From contig DYOR01000003.1 of the NCBI GenBank assembly GCA_020720385.1, forward strand, positions 1,957-65,956: DNA of 64,000 nucleotides, in the 5' to 3' direction. The notes under the pieces are model-generated. The model was given only the letters and a program-made list of their open reading frames with translations. It searched no databases and had not been told where the DNA came from. This document shows positions 44 through 6,918 of the stretch, piece by piece. Numbering within the stretch: position 1 is the first letter of the stretch; each line of letters begins with the position of its first letter. Origin of the DNA: Rubrivivax sp. (GTDB lineage: Bacteria > Pseudomonadota > Gammaproteobacteria > Burkholderiales > Burkholderiaceae_C). Both the position numbers and the translations under genes were made by a program.

Positions 44-976
44 TCAGCGCCACGATGCCGGCGCCGCCAGCGCGACGCGGTCCAGGAAGCGGGCACGGTA
101 GAGCAGGCGCGGCTGCGCGGGGTCGTCTTCGAAGGCGCTGCGGTCGTGCAGCACGTTGTGGCCCACCAGCCCCATGCCGGCCTGCAGCTGCGCGTGCAGC
201 AGGCCGGGCACGGCCCCGCCGAGCACGCACTCGAGGCAGGCCACGGCCGCGCGCGTGGCGGCGTCGGCCTTCCACTCGATGCTGCGCGTGCGCGCGGTGT
301 AGCGCATGTGCAACTGGCCGTCGTGCGGGTCCACCGAGAACACCGGGCCGGACTGCGCCGCGCGCGCCACGCCGTCGTCGTCGGCGCGTGCCGGGATGGT
401 CATGGCGTCGGGCTGCATGAGCGCGTGCACGTGCTCGGGCGAGGCTTCGCGCAGCGCGATGTAGGCGAGCTCGTGGTCGAGCAGGCCGTTGACGCCGCCG
501 CCCCGCGCCGGCCGCACGCAGTGCAGCACCATGCCGCGGATGCGGCGCTCGGCCGGGTGGTAGTAGCCGTCGGTGTGCCAGCGGATCGGGCGGTCGGTGT
601 AGGGGATGAAGCCGCCGCGGCCGTCGCTGGCCGCGCTGACGCGGATCTGCGAGATGCCGTCGTCGTCGGCCAGCCAGTTGGCGTCGAGCCGCCTCAAGCC
701 GAGCTGGGCGCCCAGGGCGCGCGGCAGTTCCTTGTCCTCGGCGACCACGGCCGAGCGGTAGAGCGCCGTGTTGCACTGCGCGATGCGCTGCAGCAGCGCA
801 TCGCGTTCGGCGTGGCTCAGCGCTCGCGGGTCGGCCACGTCGACCACCAGCGCCTCGGCACTCGCCGGCGCGTGGGCCAGCTTCCAGTCGCGCCAGCGGC
901 GGTAGGTGGCGGCGTCGTCCAGGTCGAAGGGGCTGGCCAGGCGCTGCGGCGCGCGGGGGATGAAGGCGGCACCCAT
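44..976 (-). CDS. TauD/TfdA-like Fe(II)/2-oxoglutarate dioxygenase family protein
   Basis: 310 aa; WHTDGYYH (HxD) motif and C-terminal GHNVLHDRSAF region typical of the TauD family; last gene of the operon divergent from dsrA. Confidence 0.75.
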   Translation of the reverse strand: MGAAFIPRAPQRLASPFDLDDAATYRRWRDWKLAHAPASAEALVVDVADPRALSHAERDALLQRIAQCNTALYRSAVVAEDKELPRALGAQLGLRRLDANWLADDDGISQIRVSAASDGRGGFIPYTDRPIRWHTDGYYHPAERRIRGMVLHCVRPARGGGVNGLLDHELAYIALREASPEHVHALMQPDAMTIPARADDDGVARAAQSGPVFSVDPHDGQLHMRYTARTRSIEWKADAATRAAVACLECVLGGAVPGLLHAQLQAGMGLVGHNVLHDRSAFEDDPAQPRLLYRARFLDRVALAAPASWR

Positions 977-980
977 GGCG

Positions 981-1634
981 CTACTCGCCGCTCAGGCGCG
1001 AGCGCCGGGCGGTCCGCGGCGCGGGGTCGAAGAGGTCGCGCATGGAGCGCTGCACGACGGAGACGGCCTCGGGGGCCTCGGCGGCCATGACCTGCTCGAT
1101 GACCCACAGGCGGTCCTTCGCGGGCAGGGTCGGTTCGAGCCGATGGCCGAGGTAGCGCACGAAGGCGAAGTCGGGCTGGAATCCGGCCGCCGGGTCCGCC
1201 GGGCGCGGATCGGCGCCGAACTCGGCATAGTGCTGCGTGAGCTCGTTGACCAGGTCGACGAAGGTGTCGGTGTACGAGGGCGCGCCCGCGGCCACCGGGC
1301 CGAGCAGGTCGATCTCGTTTTCCTCCAGCGTGCGCGCCAGGTGGCGCACCAGCGCCACGGTGAACTCGCTGCGCGCATCGGTCTCCAGCCGCGCATGGGC
1401 GATGCGGTCGGTGACGGCGACGAGGAACACCAGCACCTCGCGCAGGAAGGCAAAGTAGGGCGGGCCGGCATCGATGTCGAACTGCGCGCCGCGCATGCGC
1501 TTGAGCATGTTCTGCGCCACGCGGAACACGATGAAGGCCATGGCGCTGGCTTGATCGGCCGCACTGCGGCCGGCCCCTGGCTTGAACCAGTGGCTCTTGA
1601 TGCGCATCGCCGGCGTGTGCGGCGTGGTGCTCAC
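981..1634 (-). CDS. conserved hypothetical, predicted alpha-helical protein
   Basis: 217 aa ORF tightly packed between the TauD-like and DsrC-like genes; no motif recognised. Confidence 0.6.
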   Translation of the reverse strand: MSTTPHTPAMRIKSHWFKPGAGRSAADQASAMAFIVFRVAQNMLKRMRGAQFDIDAGPPYFAFLREVLVFLVAVTDRIAHARLETDARSEFTVALVRHLARTLEENEIDLLGPVAAGAPSYTDTFVDLVNELTQHYAEFGADPRPADPAAGFQPDFAFVRYLGHRLEPTLPAKDRLWVIEQVMAAEAPEAVSVVQRSMRDLFDPAPRTARRSRLSGE

Positions 1635-1655
1635 GACAGGGTGCTCGGCGAGGGC

Positions 1656-1985
1656 TCAGTAACCGCCCTTGCCCAGGGGCTGCGGCAGGCCGGCGACCTT
1701 GCAGCCCTGCTTGGCCGGGCCGACGGGGAAGAGGTCGTAGAGCGACTTGCTGTCGCAGCCGGGCAGGATCTCGGCCAGGCCCTTGAGCATGTTGCGGAAG
1801 TTCGGCGTGTGGCCGTGCTCGCGGTACTCGTCGCGCAGGAAGTTCACGACCTTCCAATGGTCGTCGGTGAGGGTGATGCTCTCGGCTGCGGCGATGGCCT
1901 GCACGACCTCGTCGCTGTAGTCGGCCTCGAGCAGGAAGCCCTGGTCGTCGGTTTCGAGTTCCTGGCCGTTGACGGTGTAGCCCAT
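1656..1985 (-). CDS. DsrC/TusE family paralogue lacking the penultimate Cys
   Basis: MGYTVNGQELETDDQGFL...LFPVGPAKQGCKVAGLPQPLGKGGY; start trimmed from the longer ORF. Confidence 0.85.
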   Translation of the reverse strand: MGYTVNGQELETDDQGFLLEADYSDEVVQAIAAAESITLTDDHWKVVNFLRDEYREHGHTPNFRNMLKGLAEILPGCDSKSLYDLFPVGPAKQGCKVAGLPQPLGKGGY

Positions 1986-2037
1986 CTTCAAGATCTCCGT
2001 GGTGGGGGTGGGGATTCGGGTGCCGTGCCTGGCCGCT

Positions 2038-2667
2038 TCAGAAGGGCGTGCCCACGGCGGCGGCGGACTTGTGGCCGACGAACAGGCCGCAGCCCAGGCG
2101 GCGATGGCGGCCCAGGCCGGCTTCGAGCACGCGCAGCGCGCCGGCATGCGACAGGCCATCGAGCATCAGGCTGAAGCCCTGCAGCGCGCCGTCCTCGAGC
2201 ACCTGGTGGCGGCCGCAGATGCTGCGGCAGGGCACGCCCAGCGCCGTCATGGCCTCCTGCGCGCTGCTCAGGAAGGCGGCCTCGTCGGCGTCGTCGGCGG
2301 CGACGAGGTGCGCGTACAGCGTACCGTAGGGCTGCAATTCGCGCGCCTGCGCCGCGCCCAGGGGCAGGCGGTGCGCGCCCAGCTCCAGCGTGCGGCCCGC
2401 CAGGGCGCCGGCCTGCGCGGCGTGCGTGCGCGGCACGCGCAGCGTCAGGCGCGTGCGGCGCGAGAGCAGGACGAAGGGGCCGCCGCCGGCCGAGACCTTG
2501 AGCTGGTGCACGCCAGCCCCGGGGGACTGCGCCAGCCAGGGCAGGGCGTGTTCCAGGGCCTCGGCGAGCAACTGGCGGTGCTGGCGCGGCAGGACGTCGC
2601 GCGCGCCGGCTTCGACGGCAAACGACAGGTCGATCATCGACGACGGCGAGGGCTCCACGTCGCTCAC
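2038..2667 (-). CDS. Cas6/Cmx6-like (type I-MYXAN Cas6 family) protein, stand-alone
   Basis: C-terminal Gly-rich motif GLGRHRRLGCGLFVGHKS and overall RLRVP...LAGRTLELGAHRLPLG...FSLMLDGLS layout recalled as Cas6/Cmx6; GTG start overlaps the upstream stop (GTGA); an internal ATG at 2637 is an alternative start. Confidence 0.65.
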   Translation of the reverse strand: MSDVEPSPSSMIDLSFAVEAGARDVLPRQHRQLLAEALEHALPWLAQSPGAGVHQLKVSAGGGPFVLLSRRTRLTLRVPRTHAAQAGALAGRTLELGAHRLPLGAAQARELQPYGTLYAHLVAADDADEAAFLSSAQEAMTALGVPCRSICGRHQVLEDGALQGFSLMLDGLSHAGALRVLEAGLGRHRRLGCGLFVGHKSAAAVGTPF

Positions 2668-2879
2668 CCCCGGGGCTGCCTTCGCGCCCACAGCAGCAGG
2701 GCCTCGCCCCATTGCTCCGCGGTCTGCGGATCGATGTCGAAGATGGTGAAGCGCGAACCCTCGCGGATGCGCGTGCGCAGCAGGCTCATGCCCTCGCCTT
2801 CGAAGTCGATCTGCTGCAGTTCGATCTCCTGTTTGCCCAGGGGCGCGCGCAGCTTGGCCAGCGGTGTCAGGAGGGTCAT
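2664..2879 (-). CDS. small conserved hypothetical (about 71 aa)
   Basis: MTLLTPLAKLRAPLGKQEIELQQIDFEGEGMSLLRTRIREGSRFTIFDIDPQTAEQW; start trimmed; translationally coupled to the Cas6-like gene. Confidence 0.6.
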   Translation of the reverse strand: MTLLTPLAKLRAPLGKQEIELQQIDFEGEGMSLLRTRIREGSRFTIFDIDPQTAEQWGEALLLWARRQPRG

Positions 2880-2932: not shown

Positions 2933-2974
2933 ATACCCGGTACGGGTGGCCGCCGGATAACCCTTTCGGGTAAT
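2933..2974. promoter_or_regulatory. dyad cluster in the divergent dsrA / Cas6-like operon promoter region
   Basis: ATACCCGGTACGGGT (2933-2947) and ATAACCCTTTCGGGTAAT (2957-2974). Confidence 0.5.
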
Positions 2975-3109: not shown

Positions 3110-4405
3110 ATGGCCAAGAAGCCGCATGAGACCCCCATGCTCGACCAGCTCGAGTCCGGGCCCTGGCCCAGTTTCGTCACCGGCCTGAAGCGCCTGGCGA
3201 AGGACAAGGACTACATGGTCGACCTCATGGGTCAGCTGGAAACGTCCTACCGCACGAAGAAGGGCTACTGGAAGGGCGGCACGGTCGGCGTGTTCGGCTA
3301 CGGTGGCGGCGTCATCCCTCGCTTCACCGAGCTCAAGGACGAGCAGGGTGCGCCCCTGTTCCCCGACGCGGCCGAGTTCCACACCCTGCGCATTCAGCCG
3401 CCCGCGGGCATGCACTACACCACCGACGTGCTGCGCAAGATGGCCGACATCTGGGAGCGCCACGGCTCGGGTCTGATCGCCTTCCACGGCCAGTCCGGGG
3501 ACATCATGTTCCAGGGCGCCAAGACCGACAAGGTGCAGGACGCCTTCGACGAGCTCAACGAACTCGGCTTCGACCTCGGCGGCGCCGGCCCAGCGGTGCG
3601 CACTTCGATGAGCTGCGTGGGCGCGGCGCGCTGCGAGCAGAGCTGCTACGACGAGGCGCGTGCGCACCGCCAGGTGCTCAACACTTTCCTCGACGACATC
3701 CACCGCCCGGCGCTGCCCTACAAGTTCAAGTTCAAGTTCAGCGGCTGCGCCAACGACTGCATGAACTCGATCCAGCGCTCCGACATGGCCGTCATCGGCA
3801 CCTGGCGCGACAACATGCGCACCGACGAGACCCTGGCGCGCAAGTGGTTCGCCAAGCACGGCATGAACGAGCTGGTCAACGACGTCATCACTCGTTGCCC
3901 GACCAAGACCATCATGCTCAAGGAGATCAAGGACGTCGCCACCGGCGACAGGATCTCCAGCGTCAAGGTCAGCGACACCCACGCGCTGGAGATCGACAAC
4001 AGCAACTGCGTGCGCTGCATGCACTGCATCAACGTCATGACCGGCGCGCTGGCGCACGGTACCGACACCGGCGCCACCATCCTCATCGGCGGCAAGCGCA
4101 CGCTGAAGATCGGCGACCTGATGGGCACGGTGGTCGTGCCCTTCCAGCCGCTGAAGACCGAAGAGGACTACGAGGCACTGGTCGAACTCGGCCAGAAGGT
4201 GATCGACTTCTTCGCCGAGAACGCCCTGGAGCACGAGCGCACCGGCGAGATGATCGAACGCATCGGGCTGGTCAACTTCCTCGAGGGCATCGGCGTGGAC
4301 ATCGACGCCAACATGGTCGCCACGCCGCGCACCAACCCCTACGTGAACACCGCCGGCTGGGACGACGAAGTCGCCCGCATCCAGGCCAAGAAGGCCGCGG
4401 CCTGA
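3110..4405 (+). CDS. dsrA: dissimilatory (reverse-type) sulfite reductase alpha subunit
   Basis: MAKKPHETPMLDQLESGPWPSF; siroheme/Fe-S Cys motifs, ferredoxin insert NCVRCMHCINVM; followed by dsrB. Confidence 0.97.
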   Translation: MAKKPHETPMLDQLESGPWPSFVTGLKRLAKDKDYMVDLMGQLETSYRTKKGYWKGGTVGVFGYGGGVIPRFTELKDEQGAPLFPDAAEFHTLRIQPPAGMHYTTDVLRKMADIWERHGSGLIAFHGQSGDIMFQGAKTDKVQDAFDELNELGFDLGGAGPAVRTSMSCVGAARCEQSCYDEARAHRQVLNTFLDDIHRPALPYKFKFKFSGCANDCMNSIQRSDMAVIGTWRDNMRTDETLARKWFAKHGMNELVNDVITRCPTKTIMLKEIKDVATGDRISSVKVSDTHALEIDNSNCVRCMHCINVMTGALAHGTDTGATILIGGKRTLKIGDLMGTVVVPFQPLKTEEDYEALVELGQKVIDFFAENALEHERTGEMIERIGLVNFLEGIGVDIDANMVATPRTNPYVNTAGWDDEVARIQAKKAAA

Positions 4406-6585: not shown

Positions 6586-6918
6586 ATGGGTATCGAAGTC
6601 AACGGCACCACCTACGAGACCGACGAAGAGGGCTATCTGCTCAACCTGGCCGAGTGGAACGAGGACATCGGCAAGATCCTGGCGCAGGGCGAGAACGTCG
6701 AGATGACGCCGAGCCACTGGGAGGTCGTGAACTTCCTGCGCGACTACTACAACGAGTACCAGATCGCCCCGGCGGTGCGTGTCCTCACCAAGGCCATCGG
6801 CAAGCAGCTCGGGCCGGAGAAGGGCAACAGCAAGTACCTCTACGAGCTGTTCCCCTACGGGCCGGCCAAGCAGGCGTGCAAGATCGCCGGACTCCCCAAG
6901 CCCACCGGCTGCGTGTAA
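6586..6918 (+). CDS. dsrC: DsrC, canonical two-cysteine form
   Basis: C-terminus ACKIAGLPKPTGCV carries both conserved Cys. Confidence 0.97.
   Translation: MGIEVNGTTYETDEEGYLLNLAEWNEDIGKILAQGENVEMTPSHWEVVNFLRDYYNEYQIAPAVRVLTKAIGKQLGPEKGNSKYLYELFPYGPAKQACKIAGLPKPTGCV

Follow-up and report, generated by a model that had tools for sequence, protein, structure and literature searches.

Dissimilatory sulfite reductase operating in reverse (reverse Dsr, rDsr) is a main sulfur oxidation route, and to our knowledge the regulation of dsr is poorly known. We analysed a stretch of 64,000 nucleotides from Rubrivivax sp. (the window; assembly GCA_020720385.1 of 3.36 Mb), which starts at base 1957 of the 71-kb contig DYOR01000003.1 and in which a compact set of genes, here called the module, lies divergent from dsrA. 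Five minus-strand open reading frames were confirmed, encoding a DUF6967 protein, a Cas6/Cmx6-family protein (dsr-Cas6), a DsrC-like protein, a protein of 217 aa and a TauD-like Fe(II)/2-oxoglutarate (2OG) dioxygenase:

2664..2879, minus strand: DUF6967 protein (PF22295), 71 aa; Pfam 102 bits
2038..2667, minus strand: Cas6/Cmx6-family protein, dsr-Cas6; PF09559 169 bits, TIGR02807 132.6 bits (cut-off 98.9)
1656..1985, minus strand: DsrC paralogue with the C-terminus GKGGY, without the penultimate Cys; PF04358 117 bits, TIGR03342
981..1634, minus strand: all-helical protein of 217 aa, no known family; AlphaFold2 model
44..976, minus strand: TauD-like Fe(II)/2OG dioxygenase, DsrQ; PF02668 57 bits
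3110..4405, plus strand: dsrA, divergent from the module; TIGR02064 510.9 bits

The 71-aa gene and the Cas6 gene overlap by 4 bp (GTGA), the GTG start of the latter overlapping the preceding stop (an alternative ATG lies at 2637), and the following gaps measure about 52, 21 and 4 bp. This operon-like spacing is compatible with a single transcript. A sixth co-directional gene, for a 491-aa 2Fe-2S/FAD/NAD oxidoreductase, is located on the same contig immediately beyond the window. The initial annotation of this DNA had described five tightly packed minus-strand genes, and the reading frames, families and spacing all bear this out. Its family labels were right but needed two corrections: the DsrC paralogue has a KGGY tail lacking the sulfur-carrying cysteine, and the TauD gene had already been named dsrQ. 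It had also placed the set outside the textbook dsr operon. The textbook rDsr operon, dsrABEFHCMKLJOPNRS of Allochromatium vinosum, is indeed neighbouring and divergent with a promoter region in common with the module, but none of the five module genes is on its list.

In the GTDB family to which the window genome belongs (151 genomes), DUF6967, Cas6 and dsrA were each detected in 13 genomes, and these were the identical 13, with the genes adjacent in all; the 13 dsrA genes comprise 11 above the cut-off and two split genes. This co-occurrence is far above chance. The association was likewise found in a class sample of 350 Gammaproteobacteria (in the GTDB sense, betaproteobacteria included; dsrA threshold E<=1e-35). 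PF09559 and dsrA were present in 114 genomes each and jointly in 108 (Fisher p ~1.6e-74), Cas6 thus occurring in 108/114 dsrA-positive versus 6/236 dsrA-negative genomes, and the positives spread over about 59 family-level groups by a hand count. Cas6 and dsrA shared one contig in 78 genomes, in 76 of which they were divergent, 0.66-4.5 kb apart. The counts rest on even draws of 350 and 234 genomes, and the exceptions to co-occurrence are affected by truncation of metagenome-assembled genomes (MAGs). Four of the six Cas6-only loci (L127, L128, L131, L132) keep module neighbours at contig edges, L129 has the divergent DsrC-like gene and small proteins, and L130 begins close to a contig edge; among the six dsrA-only genomes, dsrA sits at a contig end in three. 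The module is therefore tied to reverse dsr, as had been supposed in the initial annotation, and the neighbourhood check across rDsr genomes that it proposed found co-occurrence with dsrAB.

A Cas6 profile search of genome contigs returned 550 confirmed relatives. The 80 that were read included Rubrivivax, Hydrogenophaga, Rhodoferax, Thiobacillus denitrificans, Ideonella, Beggiatoa and many MAGs, the nearest named relatives being from Rubrivivax, Burkholderiales and Leptothrix MAGs. Genes in these loci were called from open frames with homology support. Nearly all sufficiently long contigs carried dsrAB in the opposite direction, followed by DUF6967, Cas6, the DsrC-like gene, the 217-aa gene and TauD. 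In core Gammaproteobacteria the order was TauD, a 64-aa protein, sometimes a 235-aa protein, Cas6, the DsrC-like gene and often a 73-aa protein, with a relative of the 217-aa protein a few genes farther along. Distances between module proteins correlated with DsrA distances (r 0.70-0.86), which fits joint inheritance and does not discriminate between regulation and assembly. Cas6 is retained even in genomes as small as 1.0-1.1 Mb. This retention beside dsr in almost all sampled beta- and gammaproteobacterial rDsr genomes, the ones of about 1 Mb included, implies that the module probably matters to the pathway. We are highly confident that these genes form a conserved, rDsr-dedicated module distinct from CRISPR (clustered regularly interspaced short palindromic repeats) systems.

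The AlphaFold2 model of dsr-Cas6 (predicted local distance difference test score, pLDDT, 94.3) gives this protein the Cas6 fold of tandem RAMP domains. The best Foldseek matches were the Cas6 structures 8fcu and 8fcj from a type I-B CRISPR-associated transposon (E 2.7e-15 and 1.0e-14; TM-score ~0.78-0.79), followed by other Cas6 structures. The glycine-rich loop, an RNA-contact feature of Cas6 proteins, is nearly invariant, four Gly positions being kept in 131-133 of the 133 dsr-linked copies. For comparison we used CRISPR-linked Cas6 proteins from cyanobacterial plasmids, mostly adjoining cas3 and cas8a1/cmx8. The closest known counterpart is Cas6 of type I-B/I-MYXAN CRISPR systems (Cmx6, TIGR02807; solved relative 8fcj). 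It has the same fold, the Gly-rich loop and shared Arg and Gly positions, and dsr-Cas6 exceeds both the NCBIfam and the Pfam cut-off; on the other hand, dsr-Cas6 adjoins dsr instead of cas genes, lacks the catalytic His, has a lower isoelectric point (pI) and carries a dsr-specific PHK motif at the C-terminus. The His at the LHE/LHD position, after helix 1, was absent from all 133 dsr-linked copies and present in 6/8 aligned CRISPR-linked relatives; it is called catalytic by alignment and by comparison with His46 of PfuCas6, the active-site His of a classical Cas6 (PMC3652601). The median pI was 7.3 for dsr-linked Cas6, versus 9.2-10.2 for the CRISPR-linked proteins (~9.1 for the copy in the window). 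With the canonical catalytic His gone in every dsr-linked copy, the earlier label 'RNA endonuclease' is not supported, and the alignment disfavours RNA cleavage by dsr-Cas6. According to PMC3652601, members of the Cas6 family can be viewed as chaperones of RNA no less than as enzymes.

NCBIfam, Pfam and PADLOC all label the protein Cas6, as would be expected of a remnant or orphan CRISPR locus. However, dsr-linked and CRISPR-linked Cas6 part on one branch (support 0.996), no cas genes were recognised beside dsr-Cas6 in the mapped loci (CRISPR arrays themselves were outside this search), and cas1 was missing from 9/14 genomes tested. Together with the strict dsr linkage, this led us to reject a CRISPR remnant, which is refuted as a general explanation and has next to no probability left. 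A mobile origin was likewise rejected, as searches of phages and plasmids gave no Cas6 match. The window genome has a cas1-like gene on another contig (G000:C114:2255-2881). Essentially every PF09559 match in the sampled Gammaproteobacteria is the dsr-linked gene; the Cas6 models PF09559, TIGR02807 and those of PADLOC thus yield false CRISPR hits in annotation and defence surveys, in which these sulfur genes are miscounted as CRISPR components. In the open-licence literature we found no paper linking Cas6 with dsr. Near a Cmx6-type Cas6 on the Gloeobacter plasmid pGMOR1 (L233) we noted PAPS-reductase-family and cupin genes and no cas3 or cas8 in view, possibly another non-CRISPR use of the fold.

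As the initial annotation had noted, the module shares the dsrA intergenic region, and hence a promoter region, with dsrA: dsrA starts divergently at 3110, and the intergenic region contains two dyads:

2935..2947, no strand: dyad 1, ACCCGGTACGGGT, between the divergent genes, conserved in relatives
2960..2971, no strand: dyad 2, ACCCTTTCGGGT, 25 bp from dyad 1

The common promoter region is characterised by a phased dyad of the form ACCC-N4-GGGT. Dyads of the type ACCC-N3-5-GGGT were detected upstream of dsrA in 45/108 loci, whereas among control windows taken from these loci the share was 2.2% (p ~5e-38, a value that overstates the significance because the loci are related), and the sites often repeat 22-25 bp apart. 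A single copy of the extended form WWACCCNNNNGGGTAR is present in the window genome and in each of two relatives, in every case in the dsr intergenic region, and none was found in two further relatives. Variants alter one arm without compensatory change in the other, which makes a DNA operator likelier than an RNA hairpin; the latter was rejected on this ground. The dyads therefore support the view that the module and dsr are controlled together, and indicate no particular regulator.

These observations bear on the possibility that dsr-Cas6 processes dsr mRNA, i.e. that it is a site-specific endoribonuclease acting through other residues, such as a nearby 'GIH' His, and cuts or caps the transcripts, leaving more dsrC and dsrEFH than dsrA messages. 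An excess of dsrEFH and dsrC transcripts over dsrA is indeed on record for A. vinosum (PMC3397948, citing Grimm 2010), and Cas6 of S. solfataricus cuts RNA without a catalytic His (PMC3652601). Strong hairpins directly 3' of dsrC in Thiobacillus-like loci (L187, L190, L193, L194, L199, L214) would fit as well; they are possibly partial terminators or mRNA stabilisers. These hairpins are not conserved in the clade of the window, and being restricted to Thiobacillus-like loci they were rejected as a general Cas6 target. Moreover, the canonical His is gone everywhere, the 'GIH' His is kept in 111/133 copies whereas the other 22, those of Thiobacillus itself among them, have Gln, Leu or Phe instead, and compensatory changes were not seen in the intergenic dyad. 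We thus consider mRNA processing unlikely.

The canonical dsrC gene of the dsr operon served as the reference for the DsrC paralogue:

6586..6918, plus strand: canonical dsrC, for comparison; product ends KPTGCV, start inferred

Among DsrC-family hits on the same strand as the module, 112/114 end in KGGY and none of the 114 has the penultimate Cys. Opposite-strand hits carry this Cys (GC[VI]) in 58/61 cases, and two of the others are inverted KGGY copies. A Lys stands where DsrC has its sulfur-carrying Cys (CysA); the paralogue in the window retains one upstream Cys. The C-terminal arm preceding the tail is common to DsrC and the paralogue, which in betaproteobacteria reads LFP-GPAKQGAKVAGLPQP-GKGGY. 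The KGGY group forms a clade separate from DsrC with a support of 0.996, or 0.84 without the 20 C-terminal columns. Since the penultimate Cys is lost in every copy, the 'sulfur-carrier' label of the initial annotation is not supported. Compared with sulfur-carrying DsrC, the paralogue is of the same family and has the arm, but lacks CysA, and its sequence suggests a DsrC still able to meet the partners of DsrC and unable to carry sulfur.

Venceslau and co-workers reportedly described in 2014, under the name RspA, a group of DsrC/TusE proteins without the conserved cysteines and proposed a regulatory role for it. That group likewise lacks the C-terminal sulfur-carrying Cys and its gene lies near dsr; the uniform KGGY tail and the fixed place beside Cas6 distinguish the proteins studied here, and we found no description of these features. 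Homologues of dsrC without the two conserved cysteines occur in the Solemya symbiont (PMC4287430), and in Thiodictyon a DsrC-like gene has a locus number near the dsr cluster (PMC5944118). The latter source states that DsrC of A. vinosum binds DNA upstream of dsr. In A. vinosum, moreover, the DsrC-family gene Alvin_1508 goes down along with dsr on pyrite (PMC11267869).

The fifth gene encodes a dioxygenase with a full active site: HxD was found in 106/108 copies and the distal H and the 2OG-binding Arg in 107/108, the remainder being alignment gaps. A weak similarity to trimethyllysine dioxygenase was also seen (2.4e-6). PMC7596348 reports that Lenk et al. (2012) gave the name dsrQ to a tauD-like gene beside dsr and divergent from it, and speculated that its product frees sulfite from sulfonates. 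The published DsrQ agrees with ours in TauD family, orientation relative to dsrA and complete active site; here it is one member of a larger set with Cas6, the KGGY DsrC and the 217-aa protein. DsrQ itself has been reported also from dsr clusters outside Gammaproteobacteria. Hence tauD/dsrQ was known already, and the rest of the set was not found described in open-licence literature. The published speculation and the intact active site would suit a sulfonate branch, with DsrQ releasing sulfite beside rDsr and the other genes as its helpers. Yet several loci (L110, L114, L119, L120, L122, L126, L135, L136) keep Cas6 and other module genes without TauD, and a dioxygenase leaves the Cas6 fold and the Cys-less DsrC unexplained, so that we regard this function as improbable.

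A combination of a TauD-type dioxygenase with an RNA-binding fold could alternatively point to RNA modification, in which the Cas6 fold would bind RNA, the DsrC/TusE-like protein would provide a link to tRNA thiolation and the dioxygenase would hydroxylate RNA. The DsrC family has a second arm, TusE, which does act in tRNA 2-thiolation (PMC3397948). However, no module gene bears an RNA-modifying signature, and the strict tie is to rDsr and not to tRNA thiolation, which renders this role very unlikely. Dioxygenases are frequent near the module loci of core Gammaproteobacteria, where a DUF6866 protein, a PKHD-type hydroxylase and a second 2OG-Fe(II) oxygenase are conserved neighbours (e.g. L103, L108, L128).

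Overall, the best explanation, which we favour tentatively and with somewhat less than even confidence, is an rDsr-dedicated accessory module that would tune rDsr. The KGGY DsrC, a mimic blind to sulfur, would attach to the partners of DsrC (DsrAB, DsrEFH, DsrMK, or the DNA of the dsr promoter) but undergo no turnover. Its companion would be the Cas6-fold protein, a subunit that would bind, probably not cleave, and possibly hold a dsr transcript. With DsrQ as a putative arm dependent on O2 and 2OG, dsr expression or activity would then follow the supply of sulfur and oxygen. A regulatory mode of action appears the most likely of the readings but is plausible rather than probable. More speculatively, and with appreciable doubt, an ancestor of the rDsr Gammaproteobacteria may have recruited a Cas6 protein from CRISPR immunity and, with a change in its catalysis, made it a subunit that joins the sulfur-blind DsrC mimic in sulfur-responsive control of dissimilatory sulfur oxidation.

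Several observations weigh against such tuning. Among the other classes of the phylum, none of the 46 sampled genomes with dsrA has Cas6, which means that rDsr functions without the module and that the latter is a Gammaproteobacteria-wide rDsr accessory, not a universal part of rDsr. In three loci of one family code (L123, L124, L125; genomes of 1.4-1.6 Mb), Cas6 is not near dsr but among other genes, and has Phe in place of the 'GIH' His. No conserved RNA hairpin target was found in the dsr operon, and the median pI of 7.3 means that strong RNA binding by dsr-Cas6 is not assured. Nor is the missing His proof of lost cleavage, because the S. solfataricus enzyme cuts without it.

The strongest rival is a protein-only role in assembly or maturation, because dsr-Cas6 has lost the basic charge of its nucleic-acid-binding relatives. 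The KGGY DsrC would be a placeholder in the DsrAB channel, with Lys at the CysA position, during assembly or siroheme-amide insertion, while the Cas6-fold and 217-aa proteins would be protein chaperones without RNA. The paralogue has lost the redox cysteines but retains the arm LFP-GPAKQ-KVAGLP, and the near-universal retention in rDsr Gammaproteobacteria, those with genomes of 1.0-1.1 Mb among them, suits a structural need. On the other hand, DsrAB is assembled without the module in other classes, and the invariant glycine-rich loop is the feature by which Cas6 proteins contact RNA; we consider this role somewhat unlikely and retain tuning of rDsr as the preferred explanation.

The 217-aa protein is predicted to consist of six helices (AlphaFold2 pLDDT 92.2); it gave no Pfam or NCBIfam hit and no structural match in the PDB at E<=0.001, and relatives were found in 92/127 related loci. 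DUF6967 is rare in the wider class (7/350 genomes), and its comparison with the 64-aa protein that occupies a comparable position in core Gammaproteobacteria gave an hhalign probability of 4.7%, so that a common origin of the two was not shown. DUF6967 genes without dsr or Cas6 nearby were seen at L223:7347-7658, L224:6755-7018 and L225:7003-7287, the first adjoining folate-pathway genes and a chorismatase-like gene.

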